Of a stretch of 64,000 bases of DNA, positions 1,824 through 61,684 are shown piece by piece (the stretch's first letter is position 1; each line of letters starts with the position of its first letter). The notes under the pieces were generated by a model. The model searched no databases. It was not told where the DNA came from and saw only the letters and a list, made by a program, of their open reading frames with translations. The stretch comes from a virus. Made by a program: the position numbers and the translations under genes. The stretch lies in the IMG/VR virus record IMGVR_UViG_3300025543_000013, positions 1 to 64,000 of that record; one strand, 5' to 3'.

Positions 1824-4800
1824 ATGCCAATTCGACAAAATATATTAAGAAAAGGGAAAGCTCCAAAACAAAATTTGAGAAGTTTTGATGTATTTCGTGA
1901 AGAAACCGGTGTTTTAGGTGATTTAACAACATCTCAATATTTTAACATTAGTGAGTTTCCATCAGTTTTACCAACAGGTAATAGTTCGTTTTTAATTGAA
2001 GGTTCTAATTTATTAAAACCAAATGTAGAATTAAAAACAGAATTATTAGATGCCCAAGGTAATCCTATATTTCATTATGCCATTCCTTATTACAACAATG
2101 AATTACCGGCAAGAAGAATTGCCATAGAAATCTACACAGATGATGTGGTGAATGGTGTAGGCTCATTTACCGTATTGGGTGAATTAGACCCAAGAACAAC
2201 AAATGTTCCAACTCAATTTCAAGACACTTATAATGTTCGTTTTACCGCACCAATCACAATTAATAAACGAATTAAAAATACAGAACCTATTCGTTTTTAC
2301 GGAGACCCAACAATCACAGTTTCGGAGTTGGTAAAAGGTGTAATCGCAACAGAAACTTCCACCGGACAAATCAATGAAACTATAACCGGTAGTGTTCAAG
2401 TTGATGTAACTGAAACTATAACTGAAACTACCGTTCCTAATAATCCTTTTGTAGGTAATTCTGATAACTTTGATTCAATTGGTAATAACAAAAAGAAATT
2501 TTTTGCAAAAAACTTTTTAGAAACACAACCACAAATCATTGAAGAACCTTCCATTATCACAACTAAAGACACAAGATTTACTTATGTGGTTAAGGAAATG
2601 GAACAAGGAACAGAAAATAGTCTGAATAAAATTACAAGTGCAATGGGTGGTGCAACCATTACATTTAACAATCCACATCAATTAGTGGATTCAACATTAT
2701 ATCCAGATTCTAAATGGACAAAACCAACAACATTTGAAACAACCATTATAGAAGTTATTAATTCTACTTCTTTCAAAACATCAGAAAATTATTATATAAC
2801 GAGTAAAACAAATAATAACAAAGTTTATGTTGGGTTAAAGGCATCAAGTAACAATGTATCGATTACTCACAAAGTTCAAAGTGTTGGTGAAGTAGAAAAC
2901 ACAGTATTTAAGCGTTCATATGCAAACATCACCGTAGGTAATCTACAAACATTTAGTGGAGATACATATAAAGCTAAAATTTATATGAAAGAAGATGGAA
3001 CTGCAGGTTCGTTTGAACCAATATATGAAACCTTAGTTGCTTCACCAAATGAATTGATTGATGTCAATAGTATTAGTGGATTTAAAAGTGTTGGTGTATT
3101 TAATTCACAATCTATCGTGGATAATTATTGGGTAACATCTTCTAATTTATCATCAGCAACACAAAATGACGACACTATAATCAATGGTGTTTTACTAAGT
3201 GGTAGTAATGCTGCATATGGAAGTTCATATGACTTTAAAATAAATGACATTTATTCATTACAAAAAAATGAAACTTATGTTGTTTCTTTTGGGGTTGCAT
3301 TCAAACCAACAGATAAAACACAATCCAACGGAACTTCTAAACGAGAAGCAAAATTAGAAGTATTTTTAACAGGTAGTTTTGTATCCACACAAGACCAAGA
3401 ATTAAAATTAGGTGAAGTTGATTTAACAAATTATGACTTTGAAACTATCAACGATTACACACCAGTCAAACAATTACAAATTATTGATTTTCAAACTCAC
3501 AATGAATCTTCACTACCAAGCGGTAGTTTAGGATTTAGAGTTCATAGTGGTGAATTTATATTAAACGATATCAGACTAAAACCATATAGTGAACAAAACT
3601 TTAGTCCAGGGTTTTTCAAGGCAAATGTACCGATGCCAAAACCAATCAAACGAGGACAAAACTATGATTTTTATGTAGAGTTTTTTGATGCAAACAACAA
3701 CAAAGCAGAAGCAGTTGCAATTGCAGACAACATATCATTTCAAGGCCCACCACAAGTTTTAGCCGACGGATTAGATGCTACTTTCTCTGGTTCAATGACT
3801 ATTGGGGAATCTATGGAAATGTATGGTGTAAATCCAGCGTATCTGAGAACAATAGGATACAGAGGATTTCAACATTCCATAGATAATAATCTTGGTGGAT
3901 TTATGTTGTTTAGTGGTTCAATTGATTCACGAATAACCGCATCCGAACAAAGTGGATTCGAATATAATGGTGGTGTTGGATTGGAAGTAGTTGACGGAGG
4001 TAGTTCAGTTGATAGATATCTAAGATTTAGAACACAACCAAGTATATTTGAAGTCGTAACCGATACTTTCTTTTTAGGACAAAACCCAGCATCAGTTCCG
4101 AATGGTTCTTTTATTAGTGGTTCAAACGGAACACTACAAATATCATCAAGTAATTTTAGTGTTGATGCAAGTGGTAATTTAACTGCAAGTGGATACATTA
4201 GTGCATCAGGTGGACACTTAGGAAACTTTGAAATCATTGACGGAAAGATTAGTGGTAGTAATATCACAATGGATGCAAATAATTCCACCATATACAAAAC
4301 AGACCAGGGGCCAGGTTCCGACCCACAATCACCAGGATTTGAATCACAGGCAGATGAATATTATATTGACTTTACACCAGTAGAAGAAAATCCAGATAAC
4401 TATTATATTAAAATGGGGCCAAACTTTATGGTGGATAAAGATGGAATTCTTATCGCAAGTGGTGCAACCTTTACCGGTACGATTACGGCATCCGCAGGTT
4501 TAATCGGTGGATTTACAACCGACTCACACTCTTTTTCGTCTACCAATATATTCATTAGTGGTTCACCTGCAGTCGGTGGAGTTGATAGTCCAGAATATAT
4601 GTTTATTTCGACATCTAATTTTAATGTCAAACAAAACGGAGATGTAACCGGTAGTAGTTTTTTACTATCAGGTGGAACAATCACAAGTGATGTAACGATA
4701 CTTGGTTCAGTAACGGCTAATTCCATATTGACACCGGCAACAATCGCTGGTTCACCATCAAATGTAGGAAATGCATCATCAAGTATAGACCAATTTGGTA

Positions 4801-7800
4801 ATGCAGTATTTAGGTCAGGTTCTATCGGTGGATTTAGAATGGACGACACAACATTATTTTCTGATAATGCTGCATTTGTTGTCACGGGTTCTACGGGTCA
4901 AATCACAGGTTCACAAGTATTATTTACAGGTGGTAAAATCGGTGGATTTGAATTAGGTTCAACAATTATATCAAGTTCAAATGGTGATTTAGTTTTAAAA
5001 TCTAACGGACAGATAACGGCATCAAACGCAGAATTATCTGGTAATTTAAACGCAGTTCATATCAAAGCGACTTCCGGTAGTATTGGTGGTTGGGTATTGG
5101 ATACAACAGAACTATCAGGAACAAACGCTGTTCTTAAATCATCAGGTGTGTTATCATTGGGTAGTGGAACAGACAATTATAATCAGGCAAATAGAATTTA
5201 TATTGATGGTTCTACAAGTAATGGTAGAATGTCAATCGGTACAGGATTTAGATATGCAAGTAATGCATTAACAATTGACGGAAATGCAACGATTGGTGGT
5301 TGGACAATTAATAGTTCAACAATTACTGGTGGAAATGTAACTTTAAATTCTGCTGGTGAAATAAAAGTCGGAACAATAACCGACGCAACCACAACAGCAA
5401 CAACCAATAGTGGTTTCTTTGCAGACAATTCTGGTAATGTATTGATTAAAGGAAATACAAGTGGAAATGATTATTTAAAAATTTCCGGTGGTGGTAGTAT
5501 TGATATTAAAGCACAAAGCTTTGATTTAGATGCAACTACAATTATATTGGATAGTGGAACAAACAACGGAACTATCAGATTAGGAGCAAGTGGAGGCCCA
5601 AGTTCAGTCACAGCAAACACTGCTGGTATTTATATGGACGGAAATGGAGATTTCCAAGTTTATGGAGATGCTGATAACTTTTTAAGATTTGATATTAGTG
5701 ATAAGTTACAAATTGCAGCAGAAACATTTGACTTGGATGCTGGAACTATTATAATTAATAACTCAGTCAATAGTGGTAAAATAGCACTCGGTGCAACACC
5801 ACCTTCCGCCTACGACAACGGAACTGGTTTTTATGTAGACGGAACAGGTGCAGTGTTAATTGGAGCTCATAATGGTAATAGAATACAATTTGGTGGTTCA
5901 ACCGTAACAATTCAAACTGATACTTTTGAATTAGATACAACAAATCTTGATATTAGTTCTACTGCAAAAAGAATTACTGTAAATGATGGAACACAACCAA
6001 GAGTTTATCTTGGAGAAGTAGATGGTGGTTCTACATATGGTATGAAAATATTTGACGGAACAGGAACTGCTGATGGTGATATATTGGTTGAACTTGGTGA
6101 GGGCGGAAATAATATAGCTGGTTGGACTATTTCATCTGATAGATTAACAGGTGGAAATTTAATACTTCGTCAAGATGGTGTTATAGAAACATCTAATTTT
6201 GTATCAGGTGAAAAAGGATTTAGATTATCTGCAATAAACAACGGAACATTAGAAGTAGAAGAAGCTACAATTCGTGGTACATTAAAAACTACGGTATTTG
6301 AAAAAGAAACCGTAAATGCAGTCGGAGGACAATTAGTCGTTGCTAACTCTACCGTAATCACAGGTTCAGATGTTAGTAAAACCGATACCACAATGTCAGT
6401 TGTCAATGTAACTGGTTTTGAAGAAGATGAAATTTTATTTATTAAAAAAGTAAGTGGTAGTGGATTTTCAAAAGAATTTGTTCAAGTGGGTGGTTCAAAA
6501 AGATTTTTCCCATCAAGTGATACAGACTTTTCTGGTGAACTACACGTTACGAGAGCTTACGGAACATCTGCAACATTTAATCCAGATTTACATAGTGGTT
6601 CTTTATCCGACACCGCAGGAACAGGTTCAAGTTATACACCAGGTCAAGTAGTAGTTTCTACCGGTAAACTAAACACCGGATATATAAAATTAAATGCAAA
6701 TCCAAACGACCCACAAACACCATTTATCGATATTGTTGAGAGAACAGGTTCAGGTGTTTATGATGTAGATTTGAAAGCAAGACTTGGAGATTTATCAGGA
6801 TTGTCAAGTGCATTAGTCGGAACAAATCCTGGTTTTGGATTGTTTAGTGAAAATGTATTTTTAACAGGTAAAATTACCGCAACATCAGGACAAATAGCCG
6901 GTCTCAACATAACATCAGAAAGTATTTATGTCGGAACAGGAACTTACGGAAATGCAAATACAGAATTTTTTGTAAGTAGTAGTGGAGATTTTTCATTAGG
7001 TAGTGGTTTAGTATGGGATGCATCTGAAGGAACTTTATCAATTGGAGATATTCCAACATCAACCGATATATCTGCAAGTGTTTCAGCATCGGTAGACCCA
7101 TACAGAACACAAGTAGTATTGTCATCAACCGGTATGGATTTAAAAGACCAATCTTCTAATGTATTGGCATCATATGGACAATCAGCAAAAATTTTCCCAC
7201 GAGGAATAACCGACACATACACCGAAGTTTTAGCTAAGAGTATTATTATGGTTAGTGGTAGTATGACCGGTAGTGCAATAACCGCTCATACATCAAGTAT
7301 GTTCGGTTCTGAAGACAAATCTGAAAGAGTTGAAATACTTGGAACAGGATTAAAAGTTTATGAAAGTAATCATCAAGTCGCTTCTTTCGGTAATACAATT
7401 AGAGTTGGTAGAGCAGATGAATCACATCAAACTATTTCCGCAACAACAACTCAATTTTTAGACGGAGATGGTTCTACCGTTAGATTACAAATAGCAAATG
7501 ACGGAATTATAGATTTAAGAGATTCAAGTGGAAATGTAAAAGTTCAAGCAGATACCACAGGTGTAAAAGTTTTAGCAGACAATACCACAACATTTGGATT
7601 GTTCAACGCAAGTGGTATTACATTGGTGGACAACAATGTCACCGGTAGTTTAATAACCGCCACAACATCAAGTATGTTTGGTGCTTCTTCCAATGATAGA
7701 GTTGAAGTAACTTCTACGGGTATGAAAGTTTATGAATCTAACAAACAAATGATTAATGTTGGTTCCAATGGATTAGATGTTTACGACACAAGTAATAATT

Positions 7801-9788
7801 TAGTTTCAAGTTTTGGTTCTAATGTTCATTTGAATACAGGAACAGTATATGTTGGTGTAACGGGTTCATCAGGTGATTGGATAGAAATAGACTCAACTTC
7901 TATTGATATTAATAGAAATAATGTTAATAAATTAAAAATCAATGATGGTGGTGTTCAAGTAAATGGAGATAACACAACTTCTTTTGGATTATTCAATGCA
8001 AGTGGATTAACATTTGTTGATAATAATGTAACTGCTTCTACATTTACAAGTACCGCAGCAACACTATATGGTGCTTCTACTAATGATAGGGTAGTGGTTG
8101 ATAATAGTGGTTTAGAAATTTATTCCAATAATGTAAAAAGAGCAGAAGCAAAAGATACCGGATTTACAGCATACGGAGACAATACAACAACTTATACTCA
8201 AGTTAATGCGAGTGGTATAACACTTGTTGATAATAGTAATACAAAGGCTACATTTGCAGCTGCTGGTGCTACTATTTATGGTGATAACTCAACAACTTAT
8301 ACTCAAGTTAATGCGAGTGGATTAACTATCGTTGATAATAGTGTAACACAAGGAACATTTGCCGGTGGTGTTGTAACATTGTATGGTGGTAGTTCTGCAG
8401 ATTACGCAAGAATCAATAGTAGTGGTTTACAAGTATATGAATCCAGTACAGAAGTTGCATCATTTGGTTCAACCGTAAGAGTTGGAGTTGATTCAGCATC
8501 TGAATCTGCGTTAAGAATAGATGGTTCTGGTAATCTTACCATAGGAACAAATAGTACTTCAAACATAAGTATGACCAACACCGGTGTAGTGACTATTGCC
8601 GGTGGATTAAATGCTACCCACATTAAAGCAACATCAGGCTCTATTGGTGGTTGGGTATTGGGAACAAATAAACTTTCATCATCAGTAGATACAAAACTAA
8701 TTGAATTAGATACAGGTAATTCAATTATCTTTGTTCAAAGTGGTTCAGCAGCAGACCCAGATAGACACAAAGTTGCATTAGACGGAGCAAGAGGTATTAT
8801 TGAAGTTTCTCAATCTGGTGTCGGAATATTTAATAGTGGTGAAACAGCAGACTTTATTACGAAAGAAGATAACCTTGTCCAATCATTACCAGTAAGTTCC
8901 ACAACCACAGCAGCCAACCAACCTATCACTTCATTTTCTGACGGAAAAGTTAAAAATAATTTCCAAATGAGAAGAGCACTGGTTGATGATTTCTTTAGAT
9001 TGGACAATTCAAGTGTTGCCGGTAGAACAGATGATTCTACAAAATTTATTGTAAGACTTGATGACGATGCAGCAACTGGTGGTAATGTAAAAGGGCCACA
9101 ACCAGCTCAAATCCTATTCGATACAAGAAAAGATTATTCAAGTGGTTTTTTAAACAATAGTCATATTGGACAATCAATAGTATTTTCTGATGAAATAATA
9201 ATGAAAAACATTAGTGGTAGTTTTGTAGGAGCATCAAATACAGGTTCAGCACAATATATGTTCCAAGCAATACTCGGTAGAGATAGTTTAGTACCAGGTG
9301 GATATACAGATGCTCAAATGTGTTTAGTGGATTTACAAGTTGATACAAGTGATGTTGAAGCAGCAAGACAAAACGAGTATGTATTTTTACAAGCAAGGCA
9401 TACTGGTTCCATTAGAGCACAATTACAACACGACGGAGATTTTGTATCAAAAGGTAATATAACTGCATTTGGAACATCATTTTTAAATGTATCAGATAGA
9501 CGACTTAAAAAAGATATCCATACCATTAGTGGTTCTATGGACAAAATTTTACAATTACGACCAACAGAATTTGTCTGGATAGACAATGATAAACAAGATG
9601 TTGGTTTTATAGCACAAGAAGTAGAAGAAATCATACCAGAAGTTATAGAAATATCTGATGGATTTATCAATACAGGAAATGACCAACAAATAAAAACAAT
9701 TTCTTATCCAAAACTTGTTCCTTATTTGGTTGACACAATACAACAATTGACAAAACGAATAGAAGAATTAGAAAAGAAGGTTAAATAA
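1824..9788 (+). CDS. Giant tail fibre protein with C-terminal S74 intramolecular chaperone
   Basis: A 2654-residue Ser/Thr/Gly/Asn-rich protein. The last ~98 residues are a Peptidase_S74 domain: it opens with SDRRLKKDI (Ser about residue 2557), contains FIAQEVEEI and ends in a coiled coil. In this family the domain guides trimerisation of the fibre and then cuts itself off just before that serine. The body has repeated beta-structured units: two copies of IKATSGSIGGWVL (about 5061-5098 and 8622-8659), many IGGW-type units, and four ~22-residue units of the pattern D-N-T/S-T-x6-N-A-S-G-hydrophobic (7578-8348). I prefer ATG at 1824 over TTG at 1809; GAG at 1811-1813 is a weak ribosome site. It probably binds the host surface. 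It overlaps the next gene by one base. Confidence 0.85.
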   Translation: MPIRQNILRKGKAPKQNLRSFDVFREETGVLGDLTTSQYFNISEFPSVLPTGNSSFLIEGSNLLKPNVELKTELLDAQGNPIFHYAIPYYNNELPARRIAIEIYTDDVVNGVGSFTVLGELDPRTTNVPTQFQDTYNVRFTAPITINKRIKNTEPIRFYGDPTITVSELVKGVIATETSTGQINETITGSVQVDVTETITETTVPNNPFVGNSDNFDSIGNNKKKFFAKNFLETQPQIIEEPSIITTKDTRFTYVVKEMEQGTENSLNKITSAMGGATITFNNPHQLVDSTLYPDSKWTKPTTFETTIIEVINSTSFKTSENYYITSKTNNNKVYVGLKASSNNVSITHKVQSVGEVENTVFKRSYANITVGNLQTFSGDTYKAKIYMKEDGTAGSFEPIYETLVASPNELIDVNSISGFKSVGVFNSQSIVDNYWVTSSNLSSATQNDDTIINGVLLSGSNAAYGSSYDFKINDIYSLQKNETYVVSFGVAFKPTDKTQSNGTSKREAKLEVFLTGSFVSTQDQELKLGEVDLTNYDFETINDYTPVKQLQIIDFQTHNESSLPSGSLGFRVHSGEFILNDIRLKPYSEQNFSPGFFKANVPMPKPIKRGQNYDFYVEFFDANNNKAEAVAIADNISFQGPPQVLADGLDATFSGSMTIGESMEMYGVNPAYLRTIGYRGFQHSIDNNLGGFMLFSGSIDSRITASEQSGFEYNGGVGLEVVDGGSSVDRYLRFRTQPSIFEVVTDTFFLGQNPASVPNGSFISGSNGTLQISSSNFSVDASGNLTASGYISASGGHLGNFEIIDGKISGSNITMDANNSTIYKTDQGPGSDPQSPGFESQADEYYIDFTPVEENPDNYYIKMGPNFMVDKDGILIASGATFTGTITASAGLIGGFTTDSHSFSSTNIFISGSPAVGGVDSPEYMFISTSNFNVKQNGDVTGSSFLLSGGTITSDVTILGSVTANSILTPATIAGSPSNVGNASSSIDQFGNAVFRSGSIGGFRMDDTTLFSDNAAFVVTGSTGQITGSQVLFTGGKIGGFELGSTIISSSNGDLVLKSNGQITASNAELSGNLNAVHIKATSGSIGGWVLDTTELSGTNAVLKSSGVLSLGSGTDNYNQANRIYIDGSTSNGRMSIGTGFRYASNALTIDGNATIGGWTINSSTITGGNVTLNSAGEIKVGTITDATTTATTNSGFFADNSGNVLIKGNTSGNDYLKISGGGSIDIKAQSFDLDATTIILDSGTNNGTIRLGASGGPSSVTANTAGIYMDGNGDFQVYGDADNFLRFDISDKLQIAAETFDLDAGTIIINNSVNSGKIALGATPPSAYDNGTGFYVDGTGAVLIGAHNGNRIQFGGSTVTIQTDTFELDTTNLDISSTAKRITVNDGTQPRVYLGEVDGGSTYGMKIFDGTGTADGDILVELGEGGNNIAGWTISSDRLTGGNLILRQDGVIETSNFVSGEKGFRLSAINNGTLEVEEATIRGTLKTTVFEKETVNAVGGQLVVANSTVITGSDVSKTDTTMSVVNVTGFEEDEILFIKKVSGSGFSKEFVQVGGSKRFFPSSDTDFSGELHVTRAYGTSATFNPDLHSGSLSDTAGTGSSYTPGQVVVSTGKLNTGYIKLNANPNDPQTPFIDIVERTGSGVYDVDLKARLGDLSGLSSALVGTNPGFGLFSENVFLTGKITATSGQIAGLNITSESIYVGTGTYGNANTEFFVSSSGDFSLGSGLVWDASEGTLSIGDIPTSTDISASVSASVDPYRTQVVLSSTGMDLKDQSSNVLASYGQSAKIFPRGITDTYTEVLAKSIIMVSGSMTGSAITAHTSSMFGSEDKSERVEILGTGLKVYESNHQVASFGNTIRVGRADESHQTISATTTQFLDGDGSTVRLQIANDGIIDLRDSSGNVKVQADTTGVKVLADNTTTFGLFNASGITLVDNNVTGSLITATTSSMFGASSNDRVEVTSTGMKVYESNKQMINVGSNGLDVYDTSNNLVSSFGSNVHLNTGTVYVGVTGSSGDWIEIDSTSIDINRNNVNKLKINDGGVQVNGDNTTSFGLFNASGLTFVDNNVTASTFTSTAATLYGASTNDRVVVDNSGLEIYSNNVKRAEAKDTGFTAYGDNTTTYTQVNASGITLVDNSNTKATFAAAGATIYGDNSTTYTQVNASGLTIVDNSVTQGTFAGGVVTLYGGSSADYARINSSGLQVYESSTEVASFGSTVRVGVDSASESALRIDGSGNLTIGTNSTSNISMTNTGVVTIAGGLNATHIKATSGSIGGWVLGTNKLSSSVDTKLIELDTGNSIIFVQSGSAADPDRHKVALDGARGIIEVSQSGVGIFNSGETADFITKEDNLVQSLPVSSTTTAANQPITSFSDGKVKNNFQMRRALVDDFFRLDNSSVAGRTDDSTKFIVRLDDDAATGGNVKGPQPAQILFDTRKDYSSGFLNNSHIGQSIVFSDEIIMKNISGSFVGASNTGSAQYMFQAILGRDSLVPGGYTDAQMCLVDLQVDTSDVEAARQNEYVFLQARHTGSIRAQLQHDGDFVSKGNITAFGTSFLNVSDRRLKKDIHTISGSMDKILQLRPTEFVWIDNDKQDVGFIAQEVEEIIPEVIEISDGFINTGNDQQIKTISYPKLVPYLVDTIQQLTKRIEELEKKVK
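7578..8348 (+). repeat. Four degenerate ~66-bp protein repeats in the fibre
   Basis: Copies at 7578-7643, 7968-8033, 8178-8243 and 8283-8348 encode variants of DNTTT-x4-NASG-(I/L)-T-hydrophobic-VDN. The last two are nearly identical at DNA level over TATACTCAAGTTAATGCG and are only 105 bases apart. They are internal to the fibre gene and probably form successive turns of a trimeric beta-rod. Confidence 0.7.
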
Positions 9789-37867: not shown

Positions 37868-38611
37868 ATGATTAAATTATCAGAATTATTACACGAAGGT
37901 ATCAATGACCCAGGTATTTTAAAAGCCGTTTTCTTAGCCGGAGGGCCTGGTTCAGGTAAAACCTATGTAGCCAAAGGTCTATTTGGTATTCCTGAACGAC
38001 TAAACATATCCCAAACTGGTTTGAAAATGGTCAATTCTGATAAAGAACTCAAACATCTTTTAAACAAATACGGATTCGGTACTGATTTAGACTCATTACC
38101 AGATGAAGTATTTTCAAATTTAACCAATCCTAAAGACCCAGAATATAGTGGATTGAGAACTTATGCAAAAGAACTCACCAAAGAACGACAAAGACTTTAT
38201 GCACAAGGTCGTTTAGGTATGATTATCGACGGAACCGGAGATGATTATCAAAAGATTGCACGAGAAAAGAAAGAATTAGAAGATATCGGATACGATACTT
38301 ATATGATTTTTGTCAACACTACATTAGAAGTAGCACTTGATAGAAATGAAAAAAGAGATAGAGTTTTACCTAAACATATTGTTGCGGATTCTCACAAAGA
38401 AGTAGTTCGTAATATTGGTGGATTTCAAGGATTGTTTGGTTCTGGTAATTTTATGGTTGTTGATAACAATCAATATCGAACAGAAGAAGAAGCAACCAAA
38501 CGATTCAATATGTTGGTTAAAAAAGGATTAGGTAAATTTATATCAGCACCCGTTAAAAATAAACGAGGACAAGCTTGGATACGACATAACAAACTATTAA
38601 AGGGGAAATAA
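37868..38611 (+). CDS. P-loop kinase (zeta-toxin-like) with capsid-leader-like N-terminus
   Basis: 247 residues. GGPGSGKT (25-32) is a Walker A loop; MVNSDKE and IIDGTGDD fit the zeta-toxin/polynucleotide-kinase-like group, which phosphorylates nucleotides, sugars or RNA ends. The first ten residues, MIKLSELLHE, belong to the leader family seen in at least ten other proteins here, ending in L-x-E, a T4-type prohead-protease site. If cut, the kinase would begin at Gly11. I chose ATG 37868; an upstream alternative would add ten unrelated residues. Confidence 0.7.
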   Translation: MIKLSELLHEGINDPGILKAVFLAGGPGSGKTYVAKGLFGIPERLNISQTGLKMVNSDKELKHLLNKYGFGTDLDSLPDEVFSNLTNPKDPEYSGLRTYAKELTKERQRLYAQGRLGMIIDGTGDDYQKIAREKKELEDIGYDTYMIFVNTTLEVALDRNEKRDRVLPKHIVADSHKEVVRNIGGFQGLFGSGNFMVVDNNQYRTEEEATKRFNMLVKKGLGKFISAPVKNKRGQAWIRHNKLLKGK

Positions 38612-42231: not shown

Positions 42232-45200
42232 ATGAAATCAAAACTAACAGAATGGTTAGTTAAACCTTATATCAATGAAGGCGTTGAACTCGACATTGAA
42301 GTCGGTGATGACGTCTTGATGGGTAGGTTTAAAAACAAACGAGTCAAAGTCAAATCTATTGATTGGAATGACAAAGGTGATTTATTAATCAACGGAAGAC
42401 CCGCATTAAAATTTAGAAAAGTAGACAATGATAGAAAATTACTACCGACTAAAAAGTCAGGTGAGGATTCCATAGAACCAGATTCCGATAGAAAAGGTAT
42501 TGATGACGAATTCCCATATTACAAAACAGAAAACACAATGCACGAGTGTATTGCATTTTCTAAAAAGTTTGGAGACGATATTGTATTGGGAAAAAATCGT
42601 GATAGAAATTACACACCAGAATTAAAAATCGTAAGAGAAATAAGTGGAAACGGAATAGAAGTTTGTTATGTTCAAGACCAAGATACAGATTGGTCAGAAG
42701 GTATGAACTCAAATGGTATTGGATTGGTTAATTCAGCATTATTTGTTAAACGAGATGAAAAAGATTATGATAAATCTAAAAAGAAAAAGGCTCCTTCCAA
42801 AGACGGAATTCGTATAAGACACGCATTATCAAAAGATACACTACGAGATGTTGTGGAATCATTGGTTAAATTCGACACAGGAGTTAAAGGACACACAATC
42901 GTAAGTGATGGTAAAAAAGTAGTGGTGATTGAAAACACCAGTAGAACAAAAGCATCAGTCAAAATACACGACATATCTAATTCAGTCGTTAGAACAAATC
43001 ACGGACTTGAACATCCAGAACAAGGATATACAAGAGGGCCAGATAGAATTTCATCTCAATTGAGATTAAAAAATGCACAAAACATTATTGATAATGAAAG
43101 TGATTACAAAAAATTATTTCCTAAATTTTATAACCATACACAAAATAAAGGCCCAAAATATGATGTCGTAAGAGCACAAAATAAATTATGGACATCAAGT
43201 CAAATTTTAATGAATTTAAATAAACGAGAAATGATGTTGTATTTAATTCCAGGAGCAGTCAAGTTTATTGGTGTGGAAAACAAATTACCAAAAGGATATG
43301 ATAAAAAAATTAATTTAGTGGTTCGTGAATACGAACATAGTCCAAGTGATAAATACGGAACTTATGTTAAAACAACTGAAAAACCAAAACCAAGTGCCAT
43401 TAAAGATAAAGACATCAAAGTAGAAAGTTTCTTTGGATTAGAAGCAAAAAGAATTCCAAGAAAAAAAGGACAACATCAAGGTTCATCAAGTCATTCAGAT
43501 TTATACACAGATGAAAATCCAAAAGGAACAATACACGGATTAAAGTTTGCAACCGTAGATGACGCAAAAAAATCCGTTAGTAAAATAAAAGGTAGTGGTA
43601 AATCTCACGCTCACAAAATACAAGCGGCAGTTGCTATGGAACAACGAGCAAGAGAAATGGGTAAAACTGCACAAGCAGCAGTTTATCGTAGTTATATCAA
43701 CCAGATGAAAAAGAAGACCAAAGAAAAGAATGAGGGATTTTTTGGATTAGGAGCAGGAGACATTCCTTCACCAAGTCGTAAAATGGTAAAGAAAATGAAA
43801 AAGAAAGGAAATACATCAGTTCCTTATGGTAGTGGATATAAAAAAGTAAACGAACAAAAATCAAAAATTAAAAAAGTAATCGCAATATATCCAGGTCGTT
43901 TTCAACCATTCGGCCCACATCATAAAAAAGTATTTGACGCATTATCAAGTAAATTTGATGACGCTTACATCACAACATCAAACATCAAACAACCACCAAG
44001 ACACCCAATGAACTTTAATGAAAAAGTTCGTCATATGGTAAAAATGGGTGTTCCAAAAAATAAAATCGTTCAAGAAAAAAGTCCTTATGTGGCAAATAAT
44101 TTATTGAGAAAGTTTGATAAAGATACCACCGCAGTTGTTTATGTGTTTGGTGCAAAAGACGCCGGTAGATTAGCAGGTGGAACCAAGAAATCAGGTGGTA
44201 AAACTTATTATCAAGATTTAAAATCAAATATCAATGATTTAAAAGGATATGAAGAACACGGATACATTTATACCGCACCGCATGTAAATGTTAGTGGTAT
44301 ATCAAGTGGAACAGAAATCCGTAATTTATTAGGTAGTCCAAAGTTTGATGAAAAGAAAAGACAACAAATCTTTAAAAAAACATTTGGTTATTTTGACCAA
44401 GGTTTGTATAATATGTTGACCAATAAATTTAAAAAATTATTTGAATTTTATCAACAACCACAAGTAAAAAAATTATTGAAAGAAGTCAGTGCATTAGGAA
44501 CTCATTTTAACGGAAGTGATTTAGATGATGAGGGTATGTATGATTTTTTTGGGTCTATTGATGATTATGTTAGAGTATCACCAATGCATGCAGAAATTTT
44601 AGGTTGGGAGTTAATTGGATTTCCAATTCGTGACACAGAAGATATGATGTTTACTATTATGTCAGATGATTATGAAAAAGATAGAGTTGATACTACGACT
44701 TTTGGTAGAACGATTAATCAAAACACAAGAAATACTAAATCAGTAGATAATCCATTTCCAAAATATAAAGAACATATGAGAAATGTTGTGGGTAATTTAG
44801 GTTGGGAAATAATTAAATTTTACGGAGAAGAATCATTTACCAAGATGAAAGATTCACCAACACTAAATAAAAAAGATGTATATAAAGGTGTTGACCATAT
44901 TAAAGATAAATTAGCAGAAGAATTTGTTGAAGATGTAAAAAAAGTCTTTTTAATTGAAGGTGGAGCATACGGACATATGAATCACCCGTTTGACGATAAT
45001 AATTTGACGTTTTCAGATTTGAAGAATATAATTATATATGGGTTAGAAGGAACTTTAAATCGTGAAGATAATGTTTCTGAAAAACTTGACGGACAAAACC
45101 TAATGGTAAGTTGGGTTGACGGAAATTTAAGAGCAGCCCGAAACAAAGGACACCTAAAAAATGGTGGTAAAACAGCACCAACAACCGCAGGTATCGCAAG

Positions 45201-46182
45201 TATGTTTGCCGGTAGAGGAAACATCAAAACTGCATTTGTTGGAGCAATGAAAGATTTAGAAAATGCGATTGGTAAATTATCCAATCCACAAAAAGAAAAA
45301 ATATTTGGTAATGGAACCAAATGGATGAACTTGGAGGTTATATATCCACAAACAGCAAATGTAATCGATTATGATGTCGCAGAAATTATATTTCACGGAA
45401 CAATCGAATATGATAAAACCGGTAGACAAATAGGATATTCAAAAGAAGCAGCTCGTATGTTACAAGGTATGATACAACAAATAAACCAAAACATTCAAAA
45501 AAGATTTAAAATCGGTAAACCAAACTTTTTACAATTGAATAAAGTTCAAGATTTTAGTAAAAAGAAATCTACATTTTTAGGTAAATTAAATAAATTACAA
45601 GCACAATACGGATTAAAAGATAATGATAGATTAGGTCAGTATCACGAATCATTTTGGAGAGAATATATTTTTAATGCAGCAAAACAATTTAAAGTTTCGT
45701 TGAAACAAAATGAATTAGTAAATTTAACGAATCGTTGGGCATACTTTGATAAATCATATAAAGTTCCAGAAATCAAAGAAGACTTTAAAGACAGACCAGA
45801 ATTTATGAAATGGATATTAGATACAGATAAACTTGACCACAATAAAATGTGGAAAGAAAATATCAAACCATTTGAAATATTATTTTTTCAAGTAGGAGCA
45901 GAAATTCTAAAAAATATGTCAGGATTTTTAGCAGTATCACCGGATAAAGCAGTTCAAAAAATTAAACAAGATGTAACAAATGCATTAAAAGATTTACAAA
46001 AACCAGATAATGTAGAAAAGTTATCTAAATTAAAAACACAAATAGAAAAATTAGAAGCTATCGGGGGTTCAAGTGCAATCGTTCCAAGTGAAGGATTGGT
46101 ATTTAAATACAATGGTAGTCTTTACAAGTTTACCGGAGCATTTGCACCGATTAATCAAATACTCGGTAGTTTAAGATTTTAA
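42232..46182 (+). CDS. Multi-enzyme polyprotein: Ntn-hydrolase-like, HxGH nucleotidyltransferase and KxDG ligase-like domains
   Basis: 1316 residues from ATG 42232 (TAGGAG site). Residues ~100-395 resemble C45/choloylglycine-type Ntn hydrolases (Cys106 in HEC, then GKNRDR). Residues 405-490 are a helical module with SHAHKIQAAVAMEQRA. After K-V-N-E (538-541) comes a cytidylyltransferase-type domain: GRFQPFGPHH (555-564) and SSGTEIR (691-697). After L-I-E (907-909) the last domain has E-K-L-D-G (Lys951) and EGLVFK...YK (1287-1299), which match motifs I, IV and V of ATP-dependent ligases. Domain borders coincide with L/V-x-E sites. Activities are inferred from motifs only. Confidence 0.65.
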   Translation: MKSKLTEWLVKPYINEGVELDIEVGDDVLMGRFKNKRVKVKSIDWNDKGDLLINGRPALKFRKVDNDRKLLPTKKSGEDSIEPDSDRKGIDDEFPYYKTENTMHECIAFSKKFGDDIVLGKNRDRNYTPELKIVREISGNGIEVCYVQDQDTDWSEGMNSNGIGLVNSALFVKRDEKDYDKSKKKKAPSKDGIRIRHALSKDTLRDVVESLVKFDTGVKGHTIVSDGKKVVVIENTSRTKASVKIHDISNSVVRTNHGLEHPEQGYTRGPDRISSQLRLKNAQNIIDNESDYKKLFPKFYNHTQNKGPKYDVVRAQNKLWTSSQILMNLNKREMMLYLIPGAVKFIGVENKLPKGYDKKINLVVREYEHSPSDKYGTYVKTTEKPKPSAIKDKDIKVESFFGLEAKRIPRKKGQHQGSSSHSDLYTDENPKGTIHGLKFATVDDAKKSVSKIKGSGKSHAHKIQAAVAMEQRAREMGKTAQAAVYRSYINQMKKKTKEKNEGFFGLGAGDIPSPSRKMVKKMKKKGNTSVPYGSGYKKVNEQKSKIKKVIAIYPGRFQPFGPHHKKVFDALSSKFDDAYITTSNIKQPPRHPMNFNEKVRHMVKMGVPKNKIVQEKSPYVANNLLRKFDKDTTAVVYVFGAKDAGRLAGGTKKSGGKTYYQDLKSNINDLKGYEEHGYIYTAPHVNVSGISSGTEIRNLLGSPKFDEKKRQQIFKKTFGYFDQGLYNMLTNKFKKLFEFYQQPQVKKLLKEVSALGTHFNGSDLDDEGMYDFFGSIDDYVRVSPMHAEILGWELIGFPIRDTEDMMFTIMSDDYEKDRVDTTTFGRTINQNTRNTKSVDNPFPKYKEHMRNVVGNLGWEIIKFYGEESFTKMKDSPTLNKKDVYKGVDHIKDKLAEEFVEDVKKVFLIEGGAYGHMNHPFDDNNLTFSDLKNIIIYGLEGTLNREDNVSEKLDGQNLMVSWVDGNLRAARNKGHLKNGGKTAPTTAGIASMFAGRGNIKTAFVGAMKDLENAIGKLSNPQKEKIFGNGTKWMNLEVIYPQTANVIDYDVAEIIFHGTIEYDKTGRQIGYSKEAARMLQGMIQQINQNIQKRFKIGKPNFLQLNKVQDFSKKKSTFLGKLNKLQAQYGLKDNDRLGQYHESFWREYIFNAAKQFKVSLKQNELVNLTNRWAYFDKSYKVPEIKEDFKDRPEFMKWILDTDKLDHNKMWKENIKPFEILFFQVGAEILKNMSGFLAVSPDKAVQKIKQDVTNALKDLQKPDNVEKLSKLKTQIEKLEAIGGSSAIVPSEGLVFKYNGSLYKFTGAFAPINQILGSLRF

Positions 46183-51828: not shown

Positions 51829-53197
51829 ACTCAAAGAAATCATTAGACACTTAGTTGTTCAAGAACTAAGAAAAGATGATATCGAAGAAGCATCAACAAC
51901 TGCTTCTGCCGGTGCAGCAAATCCAATGGGAACCGGTATTCATTACGATACACCAAAAGCATTCTCAAGTGGTTCAGCAGTTGGACACAAAAGTCCAGAA
52001 GTCGGTGGATATAAAAAAATCAAAGAAGATAAAGACATTGGTCACCAAGACGACGAACCAGATATGTTGAAATCTACTGCATTGGAAATCCAAGAGTATG
52101 GTAAAAAACTATACGACGCATTAGATAAATACGACAAGATGGAAGACGAAGTTGATTTTCCTAATTGGTGGCAGTCAAAACTAATCGTTGCAAAAGATTA
52201 TCTACAAAAAGCATATCATTATTTAAATTCAGAAGAAAAGAAAGACGGAGTTCAAGAATCAATCACCGGTTCAGACAGAAAAGAATTACTACAAATCGGT
52301 AAAGAAATCAAAGATAACTTGATAAAACATCATTCAGGTCTTAGTGGAAATGAAAGAATGTTGACACAAGCAATAGGTTCAACATTTATGTCTATGGGAT
52401 TTTCACCAGATAACAAAAATTATCAAAACTACAAAAAATACTTTCCAAAAAACTTTAATAGTTCATCAGTTCAAAAATTAGCTGGTATACTACAAAAGGA
52501 AAAAGATACCGTTAGAGCAACATTTTTTAAACAAGTTGTTAAAGAATCAATAAATGAAAAAACATCACCAAACGAAATGTATGATGATATGGTAAAAACT
52601 TTAAACACATCAAATCAAAAAAAGGCATTACAAAGATTAATAGATGAGTTTGAAATCGGTAGAGTTTATTATATGTTTTCAACAAATAGACGAGGATTTT
52701 TCCAAGCAGTTTTAACCGCAGAAGCATTGATGAAAGCAAAAAATCTAAAAGAAGTCACTCAACAAGAAATTGATGCGGTAAACAAACTTGTTAAAAGTTT
52801 TGATGTATTACGAAAAGAATATCAAAAAATCACCAACACAGGTGATAAAACACTTAAAGACAAAATATTCAATAATTATTATGAATATATCCAAGTGGCT
52901 CAAAAAGAAATGGAAAGACTTGCAGGAATTTTAAAAACCAAACAAATGATAGGTGAGGGTCGTTATCACGAATGGAGAAACGACGAATCCCTAACACCAA
53001 AACAAAAGATTGGTCAATCCGTAAAAGAAATTAGAGATTCATTAAACGAATTAGACAAAACAATCAAAATGAATTTAAAATTAAAAACAGAATTAAATAT
53101 GAGTTCTCAAGATTATTGGAAGAACACACACAAAGCACTAACCAAAATTTCTGAAAGGTTAGTTAAAATGGCAAACAAAGTAGGAAATTTAAAATAA
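51803..53197 (+). CDS. Modular internal head protein candidate upstream of the protease
   Basis: 464 residues. The helical start (KIAKLKEIIRHLVVQE) ends in V-Q-E and is followed by EASTTASAGAANPMGTG, a Gly/Ala/Ser module. Later junctions read QESITG (about 153) and KESINEKTS (about 248), close to the ESVNEA linkers of the protein at 54219. The C-terminal module RYHEWRNDESLTPKQK with IRDSLNELDK recurs in marine phages in my memory. Helical and charged overall. Probable substrate of gp21. Confidence 0.55.
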   Translation: MSNHDKIAKLKEIIRHLVVQELRKDDIEEASTTASAGAANPMGTGIHYDTPKAFSSGSAVGHKSPEVGGYKKIKEDKDIGHQDDEPDMLKSTALEIQEYGKKLYDALDKYDKMEDEVDFPNWWQSKLIVAKDYLQKAYHYLNSEEKKDGVQESITGSDRKELLQIGKEIKDNLIKHHSGLSGNERMLTQAIGSTFMSMGFSPDNKNYQNYKKYFPKNFNSSSVQKLAGILQKEKDTVRATFFKQVVKESINEKTSPNEMYDDMVKTLNTSNQKKALQRLIDEFEIGRVYYMFSTNRRGFFQAVLTAEALMKAKNLKEVTQQEIDAVNKLVKSFDVLRKEYQKITNTGDKTLKDKIFNNYYEYIQVAQKEMERLAGILKTKQMIGEGRYHEWRNDESLTPKQKIGQSVKEIRDSLNELDKTIKMNLKLKTELNMSSQDYWKNTHKALTKISERLVKMANKVGNLK

Positions 53198-53820
53198 TGA
53201 AACAAGTTATCGTAGATTACACACCATTTAATGTTTCAGCAACTCAAATCAATGAGTCAATGAAAGAAAACAACGGAAAGTTGATTGTAAAAGGTGTATT
53301 ACAAAGAGCAGAAGCAAAAAATCAAAATGGTAGAGTATATCCAAGAGATATTTTAGTTCGTGAATCTAAAAAATACAACGAAAATTTTGTAAGTCAAAAC
53401 AGAGCACTCGGTGAATTAGACCACCCAGATAGTTCCGTAGTTAATTTACAAAATGTTTCTCACAATGTCAAGGAAATGCATTTCGAAGGTGACAATTTAG
53501 TCGGAACCGTAGAAATCTTGACAACACCAAGTGGTAATATCTTAAAAGAGCTATTTAGAAATGGTATCAAATTAGGTATTAGTTCACGAGGATTGGGTAG
53601 TGTCGAAATGGTACAAGAAGCCAACGGAGACACCGTATCAAAAGTCGGTGATGACTTTGAATTAATCGCTTTTGATTTTGTTTCCAATCCTTCAACTCAC
53701 GGAGCATTCTTATATCCACAAAAAATGAATGAGTCCGTAGACAACACCTTAACCGGTAGAACTTGTGGAGATTATTGTAAGGCAGAAAATATAATTAATT
53801 CAATTATTAGAGGCGAATAA
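53197..53820 (+). CDS. 21: Prohead core protease gp21
   Basis: 207 residues, near T4 length (212). ELDHPD (His76) and GISSRGLGS (Ser129/Ser130 region) are the catalytic His and Ser segments of the S80 (U9) herpesvirus-like fold proteases, and FDFVSNPSTHGA is the conserved C-terminal strand. INE at 18-20 and MNE near residue 179 could be self-processing sites. It cuts scaffold, capsid and internal proteins after [L/I]-x-E in T4. The start overlaps the previous stop by one base. Confidence 0.92.
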   Translation: MKQVIVDYTPFNVSATQINESMKENNGKLIVKGVLQRAEAKNQNGRVYPRDILVRESKKYNENFVSQNRALGELDHPDSSVVNLQNVSHNVKEMHFEGDNLVGTVEILTTPSGNILKELFRNGIKLGISSRGLGSVEMVQEANGDTVSKVGDDFELIAFDFVSNPSTHGAFLYPQKMNESVDNTLTGRTCGDYCKAENIINSIIRGE

Positions 53821-60438: not shown

Positions 60439-60510
60439 ACACTATCGTACATTCGTACATCATATAGTGTAATCTATTAAAACTATATTATAGTTCCTAA
60501 TAACTATATT
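60439..60510 (+). promoter_or_regulatory. Structured leader of the scaffold gene
   Basis: ACACTAT (60439-60445) pairs with ATAGTGT (60464-60470) around an inner GTAC-ATTC-GTAC hairpin; AACTATA-T-TATAGTT (60481-60495) is a second perfect inverted repeat, and AACTATATT recurs at 60502. The stretch between promoter-like box and ribosome site therefore folds into two hairpins, which could protect the message or control scaffold synthesis. Confidence 0.5.
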
Positions 60511-60532
60511 GAATCCAAACGGAGATTATAAA

Positions 60533-61684
60533 ATGGATGATTTACTAAGAGAAGCTATTGCAGATGCTAAAGCAGTTCGTGAAACCGCACTTGCAAATGC
60601 TAAAATAGCACTTGAAGAAGCATTCACACCACGTTTGCAATCTATGTTGTCTAAGAAAATCGCAGCAGAAGCAGAAGAAATGGACGCAGAAGAAGAAATG
60701 GACGCAGAAGAAGAAATGGACGCTGAAGAAGAAATGGACGCTGAAGAAATGAGAGATGCTGAAGAAATGAGAGATGCTGAAGAAATGGACGCAGAAGAAT
60801 CTGAACACGAAATGTCAGAAGAAGAAGATGCAGAAGAATCTGAACACGAAGAAATGCGTGAAGAAGAAGACGCTGAAGAATCTGATGATGAAATGAGAGA
60901 ATCAGAAGACGCTGAAGAAGAAGACTCAGTTGAAGAAGCAGAAGATGCAGAAGAAGAAGATGAACTTGATTTAGAATCAGTTCTTCGTGAATTAGAAGCA
61001 GACTTAGATGATGAAGACAATGTTGAAGAAGCAGAAGATACTGAAGAAGAAGATACTATGGATGAAAATGATGTATCATCTGATATCGGTGACGCTGACA
61101 ACAAAGTCAATCCAGAAGCAAATGATTCTTCAAAAACAGGTGCACCAGGTCCAGAAGGCGAAGGTTCAGATAAGAAAGCAGGTGATGAACTTGGCGACCA
61201 CGAAACAGTGGACGACTTAACTGAAGCAGAAGATACCGAAGAAGGTGACTTAGACTTAGACGAAGTTCTAAGAGCACTTACTGAAGAAGAAGATGCAGAA
61301 GAAGAAGCAGAGAAGGTGGAAGCACTTCAAAAAGAAATCAAAGAGTATCGTAAAGTAATTAACTTTATGAGAAGAAACTTAAACGAAGTTAATCTCTTGA
61401 ATGCTAAATTATTGTTCTCAAACAAACTATTTAGAGCATTTGGACTTAACAACAACCAAAAATTAAAAGTTGTTGAAACATTTGACAGAACTACAAACTT
61501 AAGAGAAGTTAAATTGGTTTACGCTACATTAGCAGAATCATTTAAAAGACCTACAAGTAAAATAGTTGAGTCAAAAGGTTCAAGTTCTAAAGCAGTTCGT
61601 TCTACAAAACCAGCAAAACAAGAAGTTTTGTCAGAGGGAGCAGAATTAAGAAATAGATTCAAGAAATTAGCAAACATACTTTAA
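60533..61684 (+). CDS. 22: Prohead scaffold protein gp22 with hyperacidic repeat insert
   Basis: 383 residues from ATG 60533 (GGAG site), against 269 in T4. The N-terminus (LLREAIADAKAVRETALANAK) and C-terminal third (YRKVINFMRRNLNEVNLLNAKLLFSNKL, shortened) match T4-type scaffolds: LLNAKLLFSNKLF is highly conserved. Between them lies a ~210-residue Glu/Asp-rich region with EEMDAEE repeats. Potential protease sites (LNE, LSE, LAE) are numerous, as expected for a scaffold that is degraded. It sits directly upstream of gp23, as in T4. Confidence 0.85.
   Translation: MDDLLREAIADAKAVRETALANAKIALEEAFTPRLQSMLSKKIAAEAEEMDAEEEMDAEEEMDAEEEMDAEEMRDAEEMRDAEEMDAEESEHEMSEEEDAEESEHEEMREEEDAEESDDEMRESEDAEEEDSVEEAEDAEEEDELDLESVLRELEADLDDEDNVEEAEDTEEEDTMDENDVSSDIGDADNKVNPEANDSSKTGAPGPEGEGSDKKAGDELGDHETVDDLTEAEDTEEGDLDLDEVLRALTEEEDAEEEAEKVEALQKEIKEYRKVINFMRRNLNEVNLLNAKLLFSNKLFRAFGLNNNQKLKVVETFDRTTNLREVKLVYATLAESFKRPTSKIVESKGSSSKAVRSTKPAKQEVLSEGAELRNRFKKLANIL
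60676..60800 (+). repeat. Tandem GAAATGGACGCNGAAGAA repeats in gp22
   Basis: About seven units of 15-18 bases encode EEMDAEE / EEMRDAE. Units differ by silent GCA/GCT changes, showing recent expansion and contraction. Weaker relatives continue to ~61060 (EEDAEES, EEAEDAEEED). Confidence 0.8.

Follow-up and report, generated by a model that had tools for sequence, protein, structure and literature searches.

Gp21, the prohead protease of phage T4, cleaves at L/I-X-E, and capsid-targeting propeptides have been described in this phage; internal proteins of T4 that carry a leader enter the head, are trimmed there and are later injected (PMC9026906). The gp21 relatives of giant phages have sites of the A-X-E type (PMC10052503). 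Another kind of multienzyme cargo is represented by the polyvalent proteins of phages and conjugative elements, multidomain chains of disparate enzymes which are predicted to be packaged and injected, with a proposed release by means of embedded peptidase domains (PMC5512222). Ntn or acyltransferase domains are not mentioned in the paper on polyvalent proteins (PMC5512222).

The window studied here, that is, the whole stretch of DNA which was analyzed, has 64 kb and is part of a viral record of 76,474 bases. Its source appears to be a marine T4-like virus of bacteria, in which several unrelated enzymes are made as one chain. Comparison of the capsid and portal proteins gives Microcystis phage Mel-JY01 and the Flavobacterium immuto phages as the nearest cultured relatives. 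We consider it quite likely that this chain is a T4-like head cargo polyprotein, which would be cut by the prohead protease, with activation of an Ntn hydrolase zymogen and delivery of the enzymes. We have found no description of this protein family in a literature search of open-licence papers.

The gene, its surroundings and its modules

The features of the window are collected in Table 1. The ORF of 1316 aa gives a 100% match to its own viral record. Under the gene, the opposite strand has stops throughout, except for one mechanical ORF of 112 aa, and no tRNAs were found within the 64-kb window. The gene is flanked by tail and sugar-related genes on one side and by head genes on the other. 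According to a reading by eye, the sugar-related block takes up roughly 27 kb between the tail and head genes (11029-37823), with glycosyltransferase-like, sugar epimerase-like and small cytidylyltransferase-like genes. A gene in the scaffold position, at 60509-61684, contains acidic tandem repeats (EEMDAEEEMDAEE).

Table 1. Position of the polyprotein, its modules and predicted cuts (arrows), and related genes in the window.
Feature	Position	Strand	Basis or remark
Polyprotein ORF	42232..46182	+	1316 aa, intact, no internal stop
Leader MKSKLTEWLVKPYINE↓, residues 1-16, ends I-N-E	42232..42279	+	Capsid-targeting-like propeptide
Tag module, residues 17-64 (GDDVLMGRFKNKR..INGRPALKFR)	42280..42423	+	Occurs in relatives
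Predicted activating cut M-H-E105↓C106	42538..42549	+	[LIVM]xE↓C conservation
Ntn hydrolase (AAT/C45-like), residues 106-398	42547..43425	+	PF03417, model, PDB matches
Cyanophage-shared module, residues 404-501	43441..43734	+	74-76% identity in cyanophages
NMNAT/cytidylyltransferase-like module, residues 542-751, after KVNE541	43855..44484	+	PF01467, E 1e-3
Middle module, residues 752-909, after LLKE751	44485..44958	+	Separate gene in L097/L104
Predicted cut L-I-E909↓GG	44950..44964	+	[L/I]xE↓GG conservation
RNA-ligase-like nucleotidyltransferase module, residues 910-1316, Lys951 in KLDG	44959..46179	+	Model, Foldseek, PF09414
Zeta/AAA_33 kinase, separate gene, leader (M)IKLSELLHE↓G	37871..38611	+	Module inside polyprotein in L094, L103
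T4-type terminase	47444		Head gene of window
Portal	49029		Head gene of window
Prohead core protease, T4 gp21-type, Peptidase_S77	53197..53820	+	PF03420, E 2e-27; proposed processing enzyme
Gp23 capsid protein	61701		Head gene of window

A preliminary description of this DNA had proposed three enzyme-like domains. The motifs it listed (Cys106, GKNRDR, GRFQPFGPHH, SGTEIR, KLDG at 951-954 and EGLVFK) are all found in the single 1316-aa frame, VNE does end at Glu541 and LIE at Glu909, and the three folds are supported by structure models, fold search and Pfam. The three-domain composition was nevertheless incomplete, as the leader, the tag and the modules at 404-501 and 752-909 had been missed. 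With the whole protein, a PHROGs search gave nothing useful; when its sequence alone was compared with solved structures, nothing beyond chance matches was obtained, and no embedded peptidase was found in the polyprotein by domain search.

The mature Ntn domain matches PF03417 (E 4.5e-6), and residues 106-398 are modelled with an Ntn hydrolase fold (pLDDT 86.6). Among solved structures, the model comes closest to isopenicillin N acyltransferase, CV2077, penicillin V acylase, bile salt hydrolases and NAAA. The module points towards an amide or acyl substrate for this putative enzyme. The residues from 907 to 1316 are also modelled at high confidence (pLDDT 90.3), with KLDG and EGLVFK placed in a nucleotidyltransferase fold, as had been suggested. 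The leading Foldseek matches of this model are tRNA, RNA and DNA ligases, weak (best E 5e-3) but consistent; residues 910-1316 form a divergent RNA-ligase-like domain. PF09414 appears below threshold in 11 of 28 relatives (best E 0.0093). A match of the ligase profile to ribosomal protein eS6 was rejected as low-complexity chance.

Matches of the nucleotidyltransferase module to NMNAT models are weak (E 0.011). Its description as an HxGH-type enzyme holds for the NMNAT-like domain and for SGTEIR, but the motif itself is degenerate: when HxGH and ISGTxIR were looked for in the window, we found GPHH, in which the first His is lost, and a conserved ISSGTEIR. Part of the relatives keep HxGH, as HRGH, HKGH, HSGH or HTGH. 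Over about 96 aa, the module at 404-501 shares 74-76% identity with sequences of P-TIM68, Bellamy, S-SM2 and SynMITS9220M01. The tag module is found alone or ahead of other modules in relatives.

The Ntn Cys is invariant in 29 of 29 relatives, and so are the ligase motif residues K, D, G, E, EG and K across theirs. This invariance of catalytic residues in distant relatives points to working enzymes after processing. It speaks against a prohead core or scaffold-type protein whose pieces mostly exit the head with nothing delivered, a reading which we regard as very improbable even though the T4 core proteins gp22 and gp67 are fragmented by gp21 (PMC9026906).

Junctions and the prohead protease

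The leader is conserved in relatives as M(K/S)KLTEWLVKPxxxE. Leaders of this kind, for example MIKLKNILxE, are also seen on many other genes of the head cassette in the window. An early [ILVM]xE is present in 18 of 27 head-cassette genes against 8.0 in shuffles (p 2e-4), a count in which some genes, for instance those of the GH108 lysozyme and the terminase, are probably false positives; in the other half of the window there are fewer than expected (4/32 against 7.2). The polyprotein thus has a short leader of a type enriched in the head cassette, and this leader may be a propeptide that targets the prohead core.

An S77 protease is encoded in the window and in 13 of 15 long related records, and the published gp21 motif, L/I-X-E, is found at module boundaries, as expected of a candidate substrate of a T4-type prohead protease and in support of the protease-type junctions proposed initially. 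Not all module ends of the window agree with L/I-X-E: in KTE100, KNE501 and KVE398 the P3 residue is Lys. As [ILVM]xE is also found within folded parts, for example VRE366, and VSE950 just before Lys951, the motif is not by itself enough to predict a cut.

The initial reading of the junctions had overlooked that the catalytic Cys106 itself lies at a predicted cut (MHE↓C). The residue preceding the Ntn Cys is Glu with L, I, V or M at P3 in all 47 distinct Glu contexts (L 23, I 18, V 5, M 1), while eleven different residues are found at P2; these contexts are related by descent, so such junction counts overstate independence. In 7 other contexts the preceding residue is the initiator Met. Among cultured relatives, Chryseobacterium phage MA9V-1 has a predicted LNE↓C junction. 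Glu and Met switch several times in the Ntn tree, where well-supported branches force at least three changes of the Met label, and phages with Met-type Ntn also carry the S77 protease. A distant relative (L265) has Ala before the Cys, and a search of its genome gave no S77 match; the other relative from a bacterial genome bin (L266) shows MNE↓C together with an S77 match. A wide cellular control is impossible for this domain, because only 2 relatives are found among 84,980 bacterial and archaeal species.

Ntn hydrolases need their nucleophile at the N-terminus. The fold places this module in families requiring an N-terminal Cys, which supports a cut before Cys106, and we infer that Cys106 is exposed at the mature N-terminus. 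Such a cut could also be made by the Ntn domain itself. Cys106 would be the nucleophile, and the nearest solved relatives process themselves: penicillin V acylase and isopenicillin N acyltransferase self-cleave at their own junctions. We find self-cleavage at Glu105-Cys106 unlikely. P3 is always hydrophobic and P1 is Glu, the same rule is followed where the kinase, the ligase and the middle module begin, at junctions that lack a nucleophile of this kind, and the Glu is absent in Met-type relatives.

With the prohead protease as the processing enzyme, we infer the following course of events. The capsid-targeting-like leader would carry the polyprotein into the prohead core, and the gp21-type protease would cut after the Glu of the [L/I/V/M]-x-E sites between modules. 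These cuts would free separate enzymes with their predicted activities, which would be packaged, leave with the genome on infection and be injected. The cut after Glu105 would expose Cys106 as N-terminal nucleophile, so that the Ntn hydrolase would be produced in zymogen form and become active only as the head matures.

Module shuffling among relatives

IMG/VR contains at least 340 relatives of the ligase domain when searched with the window sequence, at least 575 when searched with a distant profile, and 442 relatives of the Ntn domain. In hundreds of relatives the modules are shuffled, absent or present as separate genes. Architectures include TAG-AAT-NT-LIG, NT-AAT-LIG, AAT-NT-LIG and TAG-x-NT-MID-LIG, plus stand-alone genes. 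Pelagibacter phage HTVC008M has four separate genes in a row, for a ligase-like KWDG protein, a tag protein, the kinase and a cytidyltransferase. The composition had been thought novel, but it is not unique, because it represents one of the arrangements of a widespread family with shuffling modules. A fused bifunctional NAD enzyme was also considered, and was dropped since the modules shuffle.

Additional modules in relatives are a polyA/CCA polymerase (L095), the Zeta/AAA_33 kinase (L094, L103) and, with a weak E value, a DNA-polymerase-beta-like nucleotidyltransferase (L094). Judged by eye, L090 also has a ParB-like stretch, and L094 an HExxH stretch. The suggestion that the putative packaged enzymes share a nucleotide or RNA-end theme agrees with the kinase, nucleotidyltransferase, ligase and CCA/polyA-polymerase modules of the relatives, which point towards RNA ends or nucleotide pools. 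We tentatively propose, as the most likely joint role, that the modules repair or protect RNA ends and nucleotide pools at an early stage of infection.

The modules, the conserved sites, the shuffling at these sites and the S77 gene can be read directly from the sequences. When module indels between related polyproteins were scored by a same-offset test with null models, 51 of 117 had both ends directly after Glu; the expected number was 2-4, and the highest value reached was 10 in 500. Module starts behave in the same way, in contexts which share descent: the kinase starts after [L/I/V/F]xE in 45 of 45, both in genes with a short leader and inside long ORFs, the middle module after hydrophobic-x-E in 43 of 44, and the nucleotidyltransferase has hydrophobic-x-E within 26 aa upstream in 30 of 33 distinct contexts. 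Chance was dropped as an explanation of the junction motif, because it is kept across many relatives with otherwise unlike flanks.

At the start of the ligase, 145 ORFs have [L/I]xE (↓GG), whereas 28 have LLLM (↓GG). In this Met form, an in-frame Shine-Dalgarno sequence is located about 9 nt upstream (AAGGAG TTATTATTA ATG GG), and its Lys and Glu codons are strongly biased (AAG 17/19, GAG 20/22, against about 25% elsewhere). Since this junction has no Glu site, Met-type ligase proteins may remain fused as well as being made separately. The KELLLM boundary, with the Shine-Dalgarno sequence and ATGGG inside the ORF, was observed in L095, L096, L098, L112, L122 and others. In L097 the ligase is split over two genes (3700-6552 and 8595-9368), likewise in L104 and L105 and partly in L107. 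The break is located in the loop after KLDGQNLMISWK, and the second part begins after an ITE site (ITE↓ATGGKLIAARNK); the protein is possibly assembled from two cut pieces.

This variability bears on whether the chain could stay uncut and act as one multifunctional enzyme in the cytoplasm of the cell that makes it, with its domains jointly involved in RNA-end repair. The nucleotidyltransferase and the ligase are often adjoining or fused, as in Mel-JY01, and phrog_455 covers both ligase-like and cytidyltransferase-like parts. Yet module order, presence and gene fusion vary freely, a Glu or Met start is retained at module starts, and in an Ntn domain located inside an uncut chain the Cys cannot be N-terminal. 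We therefore judge an uncut enzyme to be improbable.

Among the kinase relatives of cultured T4-like phages, one from Klebsiella phage KMI10, a Slopekvirus (L350:529-1368), begins with MKSFKQFTESTLTE↓A, which closely resembles a T4 capsid-targeting sequence; relatives are found in 255 phage records. The kinase of Tenacibaculum phage PTm1 (L354:1-1146) seems to have an intein-like insert, ending just before the P-loop SGKGF. Agrobacterium phage Atu_ph07 (L351) has a 778-aa protein in which the kinase begins at VTE↓G and each of two repeats at LTE↓LFDT or LNE↓LFDT, an apparent case of another polyprotein, in a cultured phage.

Comparison with known systems

The module starts after [L/I/V/M]xE offer a readable rule to find injected enzymes in T4-like phages, and point to many unannotated cargo proteins of abundant marine phages. 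Ligase, kinase, nucleotidyltransferase and CCA-polymerase modules would belong together in a single kit for delivery, and a part played by virion proteins in early RNA repair or defence evasion would become directly testable. An enzyme activated by capsid maturation is predicted to spare the producing cell and hit the next one. We lean towards the view that the protease of capsid maturation has a second function, the activation of packaged enzymes: a shuffling polyprotein, in which at least the Ntn hydrolase is inactive in the producing cell, would be cut only inside the prohead, and lineages would exchange a cut site for a start codon preceded by a ribosome-binding site in frame, or make the opposite change. 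In the open-licence papers searched, we found no account of a packaged Ntn zymogen being activated by a capsid protease.

The Mel-JY01 protein annotated as "cytidylyltransferase like protein" shares the leader, the nucleotidyltransferase, the ligase and the IIAE↓GG junction, but is without the Ntn, tag, middle and cyanophage-shared modules. RNA ligases are the best structural matches of the ligase module, which has KxDG, the motif III Glu, EG(L/V)V(F) and the motif V Lys in common with T4 Rnl1, fungal tRNA ligase and archaeal Rnl; it differs from known RNA ligases in being very divergent and in having an extra helical region, and its profile gave no meaningful sequence match to solved ligases.

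The Ntn module has the same fold and Cys position as acyl-CoA:6-APA/isopenicillin N acyltransferase, penicillin V acylase and bile salt hydrolase, which mature by self-cleavage or Met removal. Unlike the solved Ntn hydrolases, it has a Glu before the Cys, within a protease consensus. Polyvalent proteins are also multidomain chains of disparate enzymes, but the polyprotein has candidate sites for an external prohead protease. The closest likeness is to T4 Alt and IPI-IPIII, which share a leader ending in hydrophobic-x-E, a gp21-type protease, a setting among head genes and, for the polyprotein, a predicted delivery. These T4 proteins are single cargo units with a leader, whereas the polyprotein consists of several joined enzymes, predicted to be cut apart, and one of the predicted cuts would create a catalytic N-terminus.
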